From: Cohnella algarum
Lineage (GTDB): Bacteria > Bacillota > Bacilli > Paenibacillales > Paenibacillaceae
Reading direction: 5' to 3'
Length of the DNA stretch: 64,000 nucleotides
NCBI RefSeq assembly: GCF_016937515.1
Contig: NZ_JAFHKM010000002.1
Location: 4,893,001-4,957,000 of the forward strand
Shown: one piece after another, positions 2,349 to 12,809 of the stretch
Numbering within the stretch: position 1 is the stretch's first letter
How the letters are laid out: every line of letters begins with the position of its first letter
Translations under genes and position numbers: made by a program
The notes under the pieces: generated by a model
Databases searched by the model: none
Seen by the model: only the letters and a program-made list of their open reading frames with translations
What the model was told of the DNA's origin: nothing

Positions 2349-2666
2349 TTACTTCCGTTCCGCCCGCAGCTTTTGCTCGACCGACGTCATCTTCTGTTCG
2401 ATCGAGCCGGCTTTATCCCTTCGGTCGTCGATCGTCAGCGTCGTCGAAACGCGCAAAGCGCCATGCTCGAACGGCACCTCGTGCATCCGCCGGACGACGG
2501 AAAGAAGCTCGTCGAGCTCCCCCTCGATAATCGTGCTCATCGCCGTCATCTGGTAGCGTACGCGGCTGCCCGCTTCCTCCAGCACTCGCTGCACCGCCGC
2601 GACATATTCGCTTACGCTCGTGCTCCCGGTGCCGAGAGGAACGATCGTCACTTGAACGATGGCCAT
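2349..2666 (-). CDS. MTH1187/YqgV family thiamine-binding protein
   Basis: A 105-residue ferredoxin-like protein of the UPF0045 / MTH1187 / YqgV family, members of which bind thiamine-type pyrimidines. Recognised from the start MAIVQVTIVPLGTGSTSVSEYV, the central YQMTAMSTIIEGEL and the VVRRMHEVPF-H helix. The start is the ATG ending at 2666, after an AAGGAGGGAG site; the frame is open further upstream but no family similarity extends there. A TATAAT -10 box lies at 2703-2708 on the minus strand. I looked for a thiamine pyrophosphate riboswitch in the leader and saw none. Confidence 0.85.
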   Translation of the reverse strand: MAIVQVTIVPLGTGSTSVSEYVAAVQRVLEEAGSRVRYQMTAMSTIIEGELDELLSVVRRMHEVPFEHGALRVSTTLTIDDRRDKAGSIEQKMTSVEQKLRAERK

Positions 2667-2863
2667 CCCCGCTCCCTCCTTTCGTTCCGTTCGGTTACCT
2701 TCATTATAGGAGCCTCTGCCGGGACGCGCCAGCTTCCTCCTACACCGCCCGAAGGGGATGCCGCATCCGTTTCCGTCAAGGAACGGAAGCTCTTGAGAAT
2801 TCCAGATCATTTATACTATTAATTTTTTAAGGCATTAAATTAAGGCCCGATCCGCTTCTCCCA

Positions 2864-2872
2864 TGATATACT
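2864..2872 (+). promoter_or_regulatory. extended -10 promoter element for xerS
   Basis: TGATATACT fits an extended -10 (TGn then TATACT). Transcription from here would start near 2879, so the dif-like site at 2919-2946 would lie in the xerS leader. No good -35 is visible. Confidence 0.4.
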
Positions 2873-2918: not shown

Positions 2919-2946
2919 AAACTACATAACAATAATTATGTAAACT
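2919..2946. other. candidate dif/XerS recombination site
   Basis: A 28-bp element with the 11-6-11 layout of dif: left arm AAACTACATAA, spacer CAATAA, right arm TTATGTAAACT. The inner seven bases of each arm form a perfect inverted repeat (TACATAA / TTATGTA), and the right arm equals the right arm of Bacillus subtilis dif as I remember it. It lies 36 bp upstream of the xerS start, the same arrangement as difSL beside xerS in streptococci and lactococci. The site is seen directly; that it is functional is inference. Confidence 0.65.
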
Positions 2947-2982: not shown

Positions 2983-4068
2983 ATGAATCTGCAGAAAAAG
3001 AAAGACCGCGAAGAGTTGGACCGGCGCATTCCTTCGATGCCGTGGTACGTCGAGAAGTTCGTCAACTACAAGCTGCCCGACCTGTCCCCCTCCTCCCTGC
3101 TCGAGTATGTGCGGGATTACGAAACGTTTTTTTCGTGGCTGATGGCGGAGGGCTTGACGAGCGCCGGGAAAATGTCCGACATCCCGCTGCTCGACCTGGA
3201 GAAGCTGCATATGGACAGCATCGACAACTACCGCATGTTTCTCGCCGCGCGGAAGGAGCACGCGAACAGCCGGACGACGATCTCCCGCAAGCTTTCGTCG
3301 CTGCGCTCCTTGTTCCATTATTTGAGCCAGATCGCGGAGGACGAGAATTTCTACCCGCTGCTGAAGCGCAACGTGATGGCCAAGGTGTCGATCAAGCGGG
3401 CGCACAAGCCGAAGGACACGGCCGCCAAGCTGGAAGGCAAGCTGCTTCAGGAAGAAGAAATCGCGGAATTTATCCATTATATTAAGCATGACTATGCGGC
3501 CGACGTGGCCGGCAACAAACAGGCGCTGTACGCGCATGAGCTGAACGCCGCGAGAGATGCGTGCATCGTCAGCCTTATTCTCAATTCGGGGCTGCGGGTG
3601 TCCGAAGTCGTCAATCTGAATATCGACGATTTGGATATGAAAAAGAAGCTGACCCACGTCTTTCGCAAAGGCAAAAACGACGACACGTTCAAAACGCCGG
3701 TCTATTTCCGGCAAGAAGCCGTGGCCGACCTGGAAGCCTATTTGCAGCAGCGGGAGACGCGGTACAAAGCGCCCAAACGGGAAAAAGCCCTTTTTCTCGC
3801 CGTGGCGAACGGCAAAAAAGAAGGCTCGCGCATGACCAAGCGCGCCATTCAGGAAATGGTCATCAAATACGCCAAACGGTTCGGCAAGCCGTACTTGTCC
3901 GTCCACAAGCTGCGGCACTCGTTCGCGACGGATTATTACTTGCGCAACGATCTGTACAAAACCCAGGAGCAGCTCGGCCACGCTTCGCCCGAAACGACGC
4001 AAATTTACGCGCACCTGACGGACAAAACGATGGAAGAAGCGATCGACCGGCAGCGTTCGGCGGAATAG
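2983..4068 (+). CDS. xerS: tyrosine recombinase XerS
   Basis: A 361-residue tyrosine recombinase of the XerS type, the single-protein system that resolves chromosome dimers at dif in streptococci. The N-terminal SAM-like domain (MPWYVEKFVNYKL, FFSWL) is typical of XerS rather than XerC/XerD. Catalytic residues are visible: R205 (SGLRVSEV), H308 and R311 (HKLRHSFAT), H333 (LGHASPETT) and the nucleophile Y342 (IYAHLT). The start is the second in-frame ATG, a few bases after GGGAGAG; the first ATG at 2971 precedes that site. The gene stands alone, with its dif-like site in the leader. Paenibacillaceae usually also have XerC/XerD, so its role may be accessory. Confidence 0.9.
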   Translation: MNLQKKKDREELDRRIPSMPWYVEKFVNYKLPDLSPSSLLEYVRDYETFFSWLMAEGLTSAGKMSDIPLLDLEKLHMDSIDNYRMFLAARKEHANSRTTISRKLSSLRSLFHYLSQIAEDENFYPLLKRNVMAKVSIKRAHKPKDTAAKLEGKLLQEEEIAEFIHYIKHDYAADVAGNKQALYAHELNAARDACIVSLILNSGLRVSEVVNLNIDDLDMKKKLTHVFRKGKNDDTFKTPVYFRQEAVADLEAYLQQRETRYKAPKREKALFLAVANGKKEGSRMTKRAIQEMVIKYAKRFGKPYLSVHKLRHSFATDYYLRNDLYKTQEQLGHASPETTQIYAHLTDKTMEEAIDRQRSAE

Positions 4069-9691: not shown

Positions 9692-10111
9692 TCAGCCGCT
9701 CGTGATCAGCGCCTGCATCGCAAAATTGAAAAACTTCGCCTGCAGCTCCCGGGACGAAGAAGTGCGCGTTTTTTTCATCATGCAGGCCAGGTGGTTTTTC
9801 AACGTTTTGGGCGAAATATGTAAAAGCGCTGCAATATCGTCGTTCCGCAGGCCTTCGGTAACGAGCACTTTCATGACCTGCGTTTCGCGGGGCGTCAGCT
9901 TGTTATTGCGCGCGAACGATAAAAAAATCGGATTCAGCAGCGTGGTCGTCTTGTGATTGCCGTCCGTCACGATGCTGCTTGCGAACGAGCTTGGGTAATT
10001 GCTGGCATAGGTGCTGGTTAGCATCTGGATGTCCCCATTTCTTAACGATGTTTTGGTTTTGCCCGTTGAAACGTTCGTTGCGGATTTCAAGTCACATCGT
10101 TCTCCATCCAT
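9692..10111 (-). CDS. short LuxR/GerE-type DNA-binding regulator
   Basis: A 139-residue protein whose only recognisable domain is a C-terminal LuxR/GerE helix-turn-helix: [41 protein letters not shown]. No receiver or ligand-binding domain precedes it; the first 60 residues are low-complexity and Ser/Thr-rich. The start is uncertain: the ATG ending at 10111 has GGGAG 12 bases upstream, and an ATG ending at 10024 has GGGGA eight bases upstream. It is divergent from the hybrid kinase gene at 10271, so the 160 bases between them hold both promoters, and it could be the kinase's output or repressor. Confidence 0.75.
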
Positions 10112-10270
10112 TCGGTAGATCGGCTCCCATCAAATTCCTTTGTCGAAGGTCTTGTCGATATGTGTCGCAAAGCTTATGCTTTTCTATCATAATGCCAAAG
10201 CATTAAATGAATTGCCGAAATGTTGTTTGACAAGTATTAGTTTCTCTCATACTTCCGATGGAGGATTTGC

Positions 10271-12809
10271 ATGATGCGGTCGATTCGCATTACAATGGTG
10301 GCGGTTCTCGTTCCGGCTTCCTCCCTGTTTTTGCTGGTCGTCGGATGGGGCGCGGGACGTTTGTTGTTTGCGATATTCGGTTGGCCGGGATATGCCGTCG
10401 TTATTGTCGCGGCGCTCGCCGCCCAACTCGGTTTTATTTTTTTTCTCCGCCGATTCCTGAAAAAAAGAATGGACCCGCTTGAAAGCGCGGTTCGTTATTG
10501 GCAGGCGATTCGGGCGAAAATGGCAAGCTATGCGGATTCTCCGCATCAATTGATCGCCGCGTTTCGCGACGACGGATCGATTTTATTCGTGAACGAAGCC
10601 GGCAGAAACATGCTGGGAATTGCAGGCCATCGCCCTCATTCCTTGCAGCGGCTTATGTCCGAAGAGCAATACGAAACGCTGCTGCATGGAATGCGGCTAG
10701 CCCGCTTGAACGGGTTTTGGACGGGCAGACTTGAAGTGCGAAACGGCGACGGCAATCACGCGATCCTCGTCATGACGCTCGTCGACCAGCTTTGCATCCA
10801 TGACGGTTCGAATTATTTCGCGGCGATCGCGGCCGACTTAGCCGAAATGCTGGACGCCGCGAAATCCGGCCTTTCCGCCGGAGCGAACGCGGAGACGATT
10901 CACGATATGGGCATTTTGCTGGCGAGAGTCGGCCACGAGCTGCGAACGCCGTTGCAAGCGATTATAGGCTTGACGGATTTGTTCGAACGTTCGGAGCTTT
11001 CCGAATTGCATCGGGAATACATGGATCAAATCGACGCTTCCTCCCGGCATGCGGACGCTGAACGATCTGCTCGATTTCTCCAAGCTGGAAGCGGGCAAGG
11101 TGGCCATCGAAAGCCTGCCGTTCAACGTCGACGATTTCGTTCATCGCATCAACCGCACGACGCGCGTGCTGCTCGGTGAAAAACCGGTGGATCTGCTCGT
11201 AACCGTCGATCCGGCCATTCCGGACACGATCGTGGGAGATGCCGGGCGGATCGAGCAGGTTCTGCTTAATTTGCTGGGCAACTCCATCAAATTTACCGAA
11301 CGCGGCGAAATCGAATTTTCCATCGAACTGGAGGAAAATAAAGAAACCGAAATCGAGCTCAGCTTCAAAGTTCGAGACACGGGCATCGGCATGACCGAGC
11401 AGACAATGGCGAAAATTTTCGAACCTTTCGAGCAATCCGACAAATCGATCAGCCGCAAGTACGGAGGCACGGGCCTGGGTCTTGTCATCGCCAAATCGGT
11501 CGTGGAGCTGATGGGCGGCCGACTGGAAGCGAAAAGCGAACCCGGGGCGGGCACCGAGTTTTGCTTCCGATTGCGCCTTGCGACCGAGAGGATCTCGCCC
11601 GTTCCGCTTCCCGAGCTGCCTTGCAGGGTGCTCATCGTTGAGGATCATGCGGCGGCAAGAGAGCGATTTCTCGCGGATTTGGCCCGATTTTGCAGCGCGG
11701 ACGGCGTCGCCTCGCTGGAGGGTGCGATTGCCGCCGTTCGAAATTCGGCGTACGACTTGCTCATTCTGGATATGGAAATGAACCAAATGCGCGGGTTTGC
11801 GGCCTGGACCGCAATCCGCAGGCTGTGCCGCGAGCGGGGCATCTTCATCGTATCGTATACGACGCTGTATGGGCGCCAGGCGCTGTTAAAGCTCGAAGAG
11901 GGGTTCAAGCCCGACGCCGTCTTGGTTAAGCCTGCGGACAGGCATCTGCTTTACCGGACGATTCGGCAGCTCGTTTTGCCCGAGTCCACGCCCGAAACGG
12001 CAGCGGAAATCCCCTTGCTCCCCCCTTCTTCTCCGGGTTCGCGGCAAGGCGTGCTGCTCGTGGACGATCACGATATCAGCCAATTGATCGCCTCGAAAAT
12101 GCTTGAAAAGCTGAACTGTCCGGTCGTTGCCGCGGCAAGCGGAATGGAAGCGCTGCGGCTGCTGCAAAACTGCCGGTTCGATTTGATCCTCATGGATCTG
12201 CATATGCCGGAAATGGACGGCTTGACGACGGTTCGCCGCATTCGCGCCGACGAACGGCTGAACGGGACGCCGATCGTCATCCTGACCGCGGACACTTCGA
12301 TGGAACAGCACGAAGAGTGCCTGGCGGCGGGCGTTCAGGAGGTGCTGACAAAGCCGCTTGACCTCAACCGGATGCAAGCCGTCCTGAACCGGTGGTTCGG
12401 ATGGAGCGGGCCGGAGCGAAGCGGCGCCGTTCCCGCCGGCCCTCCGGTTTCCTTGCCCGCGCTGGACGGACTTCATGTCGCCGCCGCGCTTGCGAGACTC
12501 GACGGAAGGCAAGAAGTTTATTTGCATTTGCTGCGGAAATTCAGGGAAAGATATGCCAATATTGCGGACCTTTTGGCAGCCGATATCGAAACGGGAAACT
12601 ATTTGAAAGCCGCTCAAAAGCTTCATACGCTGCGCGGATCGTCGAGTCATCTTGCGGCCGACGACGTCTATGACGCAGCCACGCGGCTGGAAGCGACGTT
12701 GCGCCGAACAGACGGCCCCGAAACGTTCGAAGCGGACATTCGGGAGCTGGAGGAGCGCTTGCAGGCGGTTTTTCGCTCCATATCAAAGTTTGAGAAAAGT
12801 ATTAGCTAA
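10271..12809 (+). pseudogene. hybrid sensor histidine kinase (TM-PAS-HisKA-HATPase-REC-REC-Hpt), frameshifted
   Basis: Read as one protein of about 840 residues: two N-terminal membrane segments, a PAS-like domain (LIAAFRDDGSILFVNEAGRNMLG), HisKA (ARVGHELRTPLQAIIG, phospho-His), HATPase (LLNLLGNSIKF, DTGIGM, GTGLGL), a first receiver (VLIVEDH, LILDMEM), a second receiver (LLVDDHD, LILMDLHMP, LTKPLD) and a C-terminal Hpt domain (KLHTLRGSSSHL). The first frame (10271-11179) loses homology after IDASSRH, and the rest continues in another frame from about 11049. The shift needs loss of two bases or gain of one at about 11045-11051; CATG may derive from CATATG. The first ATG has GGAGG six bases upstream, and the downstream frame has no binding site. 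It could be a real mutation or an assembly error. Confidence 0.85.

Follow-up and report, generated by a model that had tools for sequence, protein, structure and literature searches.

A XerCD-class site upstream of xerS and a candidate dimer-resolution element at the GC-skew switch of the Cohnella algarum chromosome

Described dif systems and the site upstream of xerS

The dif site of Bacillus subtilis, printed as ACTTCCTAGAATATATATTATGTAAACT in PMC3025954, has an 11-6-11 layout and belongs to the recombinases CodV and RipX (XerC and XerD), of which RipX is described as preferring the right half-site. Sequence models of this XerCD class have been used to predict dif (PMC3025954). In streptococci and lactococci, XerS goes with difSL, which is 31 bp long with an 11-bp centre and whose half-sites are given in PMC5357621, and in the epsilon-proteobacteria XerH goes with difH, which has the core GAAAA-N6-TTTTC (Table 2 of PMC2731167). 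In Acinetobacter the main dif is accompanied by several other XerCD-type sites, in the form of dif-like sites and dif modules (PMC12907356). Among the matches listed, the open-licence PubMed Central literature yielded no published account of a Paenibacillus dif.

The site described here lies on the chromosome of Cohnella algarum (C2; 6,194,872 bp, with dnaA at 1,706,405), within a window of 64,000 nucleotides, by which we mean the whole stretch of DNA analysed. It occupies 28 bp of the plus strand (2919..2946; C2 4,895,919) and reads AAACTACATAA-CAATAA-TTATGTAAACT, with a weaker left arm (2919..2929), a 6-bp spacer (2930..2935) and a strong right arm (2936..2946). The initial annotation had called it a dif-like element of 11-6-11 layout, and its sequence, coordinates, layout and inner inverted repeat were all confirmed; the perfect repeat spans the innermost 7 bp of each arm. 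The right arm, which had been said to equal that of B. subtilis dif, is identical to it in the version printed in PMC3025954. The left arm, in contrast, is not the CodV arm, and across related sites only its inner ACATAA shows good conservation. Scanning the whole genome with the 28-mer gave a single match at up to 3 mismatches and none with the reversed control, and a B. subtilis-like dif pattern had no match in the whole genome with up to 3 mismatches allowed.

Downstream of the site lies xerS (2983..4068, plus strand), a reading frame that is open throughout, encodes the R, HxxR, H and Y residues of tyrosine recombinases (start and residues assigned by eye) and scores 395.8 bits against NCBIfam NF003462 (cut-off, 267). 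Its nearest relatives recovered were from Cohnella. The end of the site is separated by 36 bp from the likely start codon at 2983, itself placed by eye. A likely -10 sequence, TATACT (2867..2872, plus strand), was recognized by eye and was not called by a consensus promoter scan; because it lies upstream of the site, the site would be in the transcribed leader of xerS. The string CCATGNTATAMTA is also found, by eye, ahead of xerS in four Cohnella leaders that have no site of the window type (L023, L024, L027 and L039). A gene for an MTH1187-family thiamine-binding protein (2349..2705, minus strand) is divergent from xerS, and three other genomes (G017, G001 and G030) have a homologue at 2 to 9 kb from xerS.

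The expectation that orthologous xerS genes would be preceded by such a site was often borne out. Among 80 xerS loci, a matrix site was found within 1.5 kb upstream in 45, within 150 bp upstream in 35 and inside xerS in none, counts that are partly circular because the matrix derives from 44 sites in those same 80 loci. The upstream sequence of one locus (L045) is only 306 bp long. No sites were found in shuffled loci or with the reversed matrix. In many loci 12 to 48 bp separate the end of the site, near the ribosome-binding region, from the first xerS residue matched; in the remaining 35 of the 80 loci, no matrix site was present in the 1.5 kb upstream. The streptococcal arrangement that had been suggested for the locus holds as to adjacency to xerS but not as to the site itself, which has XerCD-class arms in place of the half-sites and long centre of difSL (PMC5357621). 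A further difference from XerS/difSL is that C. algarum also encodes XerD.

The switch of the chromosome arms and the element beside it

The window site had also been proposed as the chromosomal dif, marking the replication terminus. At 0.515 of the circle from dnaA it is indeed near the terminus. Cumulative GC skew, however, reaches its maximum over the 417 kb scanned at 4858510, outside the window and about 37 kb left of the site, and the DNA on both sides of the site already has negative skew. Octamers chosen from the far flanks only, with palindrome position not used as the divide, switch at about 4855050 with both the top 30 and the top 60 and at 4833743 with the top 12, and the interval 4858728-4895919 already has right-arm polarity (88 versus 226 oriented octamers, top 60). 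Since GC skew and octamers both switch left of 4895919, the window site lies 37 kb into the right arm, and its identification as the chromosomal dif was rejected. A better site, of the kind that the initial annotation had named as refuting its proposal, was found at the skew extremum, 37.4 kb left of the window site.

That site is a 28-bp element, TATGTAYAAAA-TACGGG-TTTTGTGAAAA (C2:4858531-4858558), located outside the 64-kb window, 34.5 kb to the left of its first base. It was found by comparing the skew-peak region of C. algarum with that of a second Cohnella genome, G017, and lies 35 and 39 bp, respectively, from the two peaks. A palindrome of the window-site class at C2:4858700, 204 bp from the peak, was considered as dif and set aside because the element common to C. 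algarum and G017 is closer. The element occurs once in each of 14 of 14 terminus stretches with an interior skew maximum, with 0 to 2 mismatches of 28, the next-best match in these stretches having at least 8. Its distances from the maximum are 35, 39, 5931, 273, 47, 1722, 49, 90, 9, 31, 146, 36, 22 and 169 bp, that is, at most 300 bp in 12 of the 14 and at most 100 bp in 9, with outliers at 1722 and 5931 bp; the product of 2d/length over 12 genomes, the two discovery genomes being excluded, is 10^-32. The consensus is ACA TATGTacAAAA TACGgG TTTTGTGaa.a aGt (capitals, 14 of 14). Among the 16 genomes scanned, the element was absent from the stretches of G002 and G005, which miss the skew maximum, and it was likewise absent from a 40-kb piece each of G108 and G078, neither of which contains an interior skew maximum. 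In the 417 kb read from C. algarum it is intergenic and present as a single copy at the skew switch.

With its AAAA-N6-TTTT inner arms, and specifically CAAAA-N6-TTTTG, the element is by sequence of the single-recombinase class represented by difH and difSL, and unlike the CATAA-N6-TTATG class. The difH core is close to it, and location near the skew peak is a further likeness, although the recombinase is another one. With XerS/difSL it has in common the occurrence of XerS, AAAA and TTTT at the inner ends of the arms, and a right arm resembling TTTTCTTGAAA; it differs in its 11-6-11 layout and in its distance from xerS, which is 37 kb here and from 11 kb to 833 kb in the 14 genomes.

We put at roughly seven in ten the probability that XerS resolves chromosome dimers at the C2:4858531 element, with the window site serving as an accessory site of the XerD class in the leader of xerS. 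The occurrence of XerS above the cut-off in 43 of 43 genomes supports XerS as the recombinase at the element, as does a core like that of the difH and difSL half-sites; contrary to it, the element lies away from xerS, whereas difSL, and difH in most cases, adjoins the gene of its recombinase. The frequent conservation of the window site ahead of xerS makes a direct role of XerS at the window site conceivable. The element looks like a dimer-resolution site in related bacteria as well and is a directly testable candidate for Paenibacillus and Cohnella. In Paenibacillaceae, models of the XerCD class would probably choose the multi-copy palindromes described below, like the initial annotation, and overlook the site at the arm switch.

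Multi-copy palindromes and the Xer recombinases

The window site has the 28 bp, 11-6-11 layout, CATAA-N6-TTATG core and conserved XerD arm of XerCD sites. It is not the only one of its chromosome, as XerCD dif would be, but one of three related sites in the terminus, at 4858700 (spacer TTATTA), 4882976 (CTTATA) and 4895919 (CAATAA). A matrix scan of the 157 kb around it gave three sites, at 31.8, 33.6 and 35.2 bits, against at most 4.7 in three letter shuffles. Forty-three related genomes, 38 of them consisting of one or two contigs and five represented by loci on long contigs, were scanned with GTTWACATAA-N6-TTATGT, allowing 1 mismatch; the palindrome class, TACATAA-N6-TTATGTA, was found in 39, with 182 strand matches in all versus 15 for a backward control. 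Among the matches listed, 105 of 108 palindromes, from 31 genomes, lie at 0.40 to 0.60 of the circle from dnaA, a survey in which most genome sizes are rounded to 0.1 Mb and which takes in 31 of the 32 listed genomes, the one place in G105 being omitted. When 126 distinct sites were oriented by their stronger arm, TTATGT and a C at position 27 were invariant or nearly so, and the opposite arm retained mainly ACATAA. Classed in this way, from their letters, the palindromes are XerCD-class sites whose XerD arm is conserved. They do not mark the switch, since in 10 of 14 genomes even the closest one is over 5 kb away from the skew maximum. Copies mostly have different spacers, but not more often than expected. 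Two pairs of XerD-class sites with identical spacers were noticed, one in G062 (C1:2075200 and 2075271, 71 bp apart) and one upstream of xerS in Cohnella luojiensis (L032; 1.5 kb apart).

A XerC/D-type protein is encoded in 118 of 118 genomes of the family at E <= 1e-60, with exactly one in 110; its typing as XerC or XerD refers to the C. algarum genome only. There it is XerD (TIGR02225; 341.2 bits, cut-off 329.6), and its gene adjoins a deoB-like gene (named by eye from sequence). No second XerC/D-type protein was found in the C. algarum genome at E <= 1e-60, and the next matches of the XerC/D family reach at most 159 bits against a cut-off of 279. C. algarum therefore differs from B. subtilis, with its CodV and RipX, and the XerC/XerD pair beside which the initial annotation had envisaged XerS as a second system is not what we found; XerD and XerS are present, and at this threshold no XerC. 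The window site departs from B. subtilis dif also in having several related copies per genome and in lying off the skew switch. A third tyrosine recombinase of about 300 to 320 amino acids is encoded in 36 of the 43 genomes (for example, L160:3586-4491); at the threshold used it is absent from C. algarum, from G017 and G030 of the same genus, from Cohnella cholangitidis (G001), and from G003, G062 and G105. Four examples scored best as XerC, far under the cut-off (189 to 200 bits; cut-off, 335).

Taken as one of three accessory XerCD-class sites in the terminus, the window site, in which a strong XerD-type arm is paired with a weak left one, would most likely be bound by XerD, the only canonical XerC/D-type recombinase here. 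Its occupancy in the transcribed leader could modulate xerS expression; alternatively, sister-site recombination might take place between identical copies of it. Chromosome dimers would be resolved elsewhere, at C2:4858531-4858558, most likely through the action of XerS. Extended to the whole of the Paenibacillaceae, the model would be that XerC/XerD-dif has been replaced by XerS at one nearly invariant, gene-unlinked dif, which is also on some large plasmids, and that XerD has been kept, often with the divergent XerC-like third recombinase, for separate multi-copy terminus sites, one of them in the xerS leader, giving two parallel Xer systems; we consider the chances of this wider model to be evenly balanced. 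Were dimers resolved at another site, and probably by another recombinase, the remaining function of XerD and of the multi-copy sites would come into question.

It is also conceivable, although we are inclined to doubt it, that the window site serves as an operator through which a dimeric regulator, possibly XerD or XerS, controls xerS without recombination. Its place behind the likely -10 sequence and the closeness of the sites to the xerS coding sequence in many loci would suit such a role, and in G053 the palindrome of at least one site is perfect and extends through the spacer, so that recombination there would be non-directional. Many palindromes, however, are not before xerS: among the matches listed, 19 of 31 genomes have none within 2.5 kb of the gene, and in 13 of the 26 genomes that have both, a copy lies 35 to 212 bp from the third recombinase, in 13 of 13 cases on its 3' side, where an operator role is not expected. 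Clustering at the terminus is likewise untypical of operators.

An unlikely reading is that the window site is the chromosome's XerS site, in a xerS/dif module of the streptococcal type. This would account for a site some 36 bp before xerS, in a position shared by the 35 loci with a site no more than 150 bp upstream, and for the lack of sites inside the gene. Yet the 35 loci without an upstream site speak against it, and relocation of xerS leaves the palindromes behind, close to the terminus or to the third recombinase (as in G002, G016, G027, G040, G048, G115 and G122); in G040, xerS is 787 kb distant and the palindromes remain beside the third recombinase. Moreover, CATAA-N6-TTATG is the XerCD class, difSL having other half-sites and an 11-bp centre, and the skew switch is not at the window site.

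Plasmids and mobile elements

We return to the preferred reading, with XerS at the skew-switch element and the window site as an accessory XerD-class site, and to the occurrence of the element and of xerS on plasmids. A 36-mer containing the element matched 7 of 72,556 PLSDB plasmid records, all from Paenibacillus and 128 to 375 kb in size; four of the seven matches cover at least 80% of the query, and no gene is listed under any of them in the PLSDB gene table, which is incomplete. In the five of these plasmids that were read (L301-L305), the 28-mer has 2, 4, 6, 4 and 4 mismatches. The P. urinalis plasmid has a palindrome 12 bp from the element (25.4 bits), and no palindrome was found near the element in the stretches read from the other four. 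Relatives of XerS are encoded on 519 plasmid records, 383 of them from Enterococcus. Sixteen plasmid xerS leaders were read; a site of the AAAA-N6-TTTT class was found in seven and nothing clear of that class in the other nine. Five of the 16 have an AAA-N6-TTT inverted repeat with a shuffle p of at most 0.025, the repeat pairs numbering 11 of 11 in Alkalihalophilus, 9 in Peribacillus, and 8 in Salimicrobium, B. badius and Metabacillus. The leaders from Halobacillus and P. polymyxa YT9 plasmids carry the arms of the element with 4 mismatches of 22 (shuffles, 6 to 8). Among the three plasmid XerS proteins nearest to that of C. algarum (65 to 70% identical), such a site accompanies only one, and the 400-bp leaders of the 80 chromosomal xerS genes contain no AAA-class repeat of at least 9 pairs. 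The Peribacillus plasmid has, besides its leader repeat, a perfect inverted repeat, TATTCGTAAAA TCTTGA TTTTACGAATA (L325:21-48), about 1.1 kb upstream of xerS.

The plasmids bear on another improbable reading, that the recombinase of the skew-switch element is XerD, by itself or jointly with a second one, and that XerS has some other role. XerD could act there because the right arm TTTTGTGAAAA agrees with the right arm of E. coli dif, the XerD arm, at 8 of 11 positions (by eye; sequence from PMC3025954), and proteins of the XerC/D type occur in every one of the family genomes. Against this, AAAA-N6-TTTT is the class of single recombinases, and the xerS of the Halobacillus plasmid carries the half-sites TTTTGTGAATA, as in G040, G120 and G030. 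It is more improbable still that the extra palindromes are scars of dif-using mobile elements, like the dif modules of Acinetobacter, since, although extra chromosomal dif-like sites are on record there (PMC12907356) and same-spacer pairs occur 71 bp apart in G062 and 1.5 kb apart in L032, the palindromes here, unlike the Acinetobacter sites, are clustered at the terminus and often beside recombinase genes, four sites keep similar distances from xerS in G018, G053 and G094 (about -16, -2.4 to -3.5, -0.8 and +10 kb), four of the five sites mapped in G053 are between predicted ORFs (one overlaps a 101-aa ORF), identical spacers are not commoner within genomes (2 of 65 pairs) than between them (30 of 1111), and a scan of viral contigs gave one palindrome match, and the 4.2 kb read there contained no integrase.

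The element itself had no match in viral contigs; a search of phages gave two weak matches. Several mobile-element-like genes were noticed near the sites. Left of the window and between two XerD-class sites, C2:4883501-4891323 contains a Tn3-family-like transposase gene with an adjacent tyrosine recombinase gene and an IS110-like gene (by eye; L126:3501-7441 and 10052-11323). Transposon-like genes also occupy C2:4853134-4858526, and the sequence CCTTCGACA stops about 10 bp before the C. algarum element and is also found at a likely transposon end in G017 (by eye). In G017, a Tn7-like set (L174:3414-9741; G017:C1:1647414-1653741) encodes a TnsA-like protein (PF08722), a 662-aa protein without a Pfam match, TniB, TniQ below the cut-off and, as its last gene, a XerS-like protein (143 bits) that stops about 160 bp before the element; the likely right end of the set is about 45 bp before the element (by eye). 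The XerS-like protein of this type is rare, being found in 2 of 394 genomes, one copy of which is partial with a stop. A second XerS-like gene (L174:2062-3093; 258 bits, cut-off 267) lies beside the set. The G017 set is a candidate transposon homing to dif by way of a Xer-derived selector, for which TnsF, described in PMC10293859 as a Tn7 target selector derived from a tyrosine recombinase, provides a precedent.
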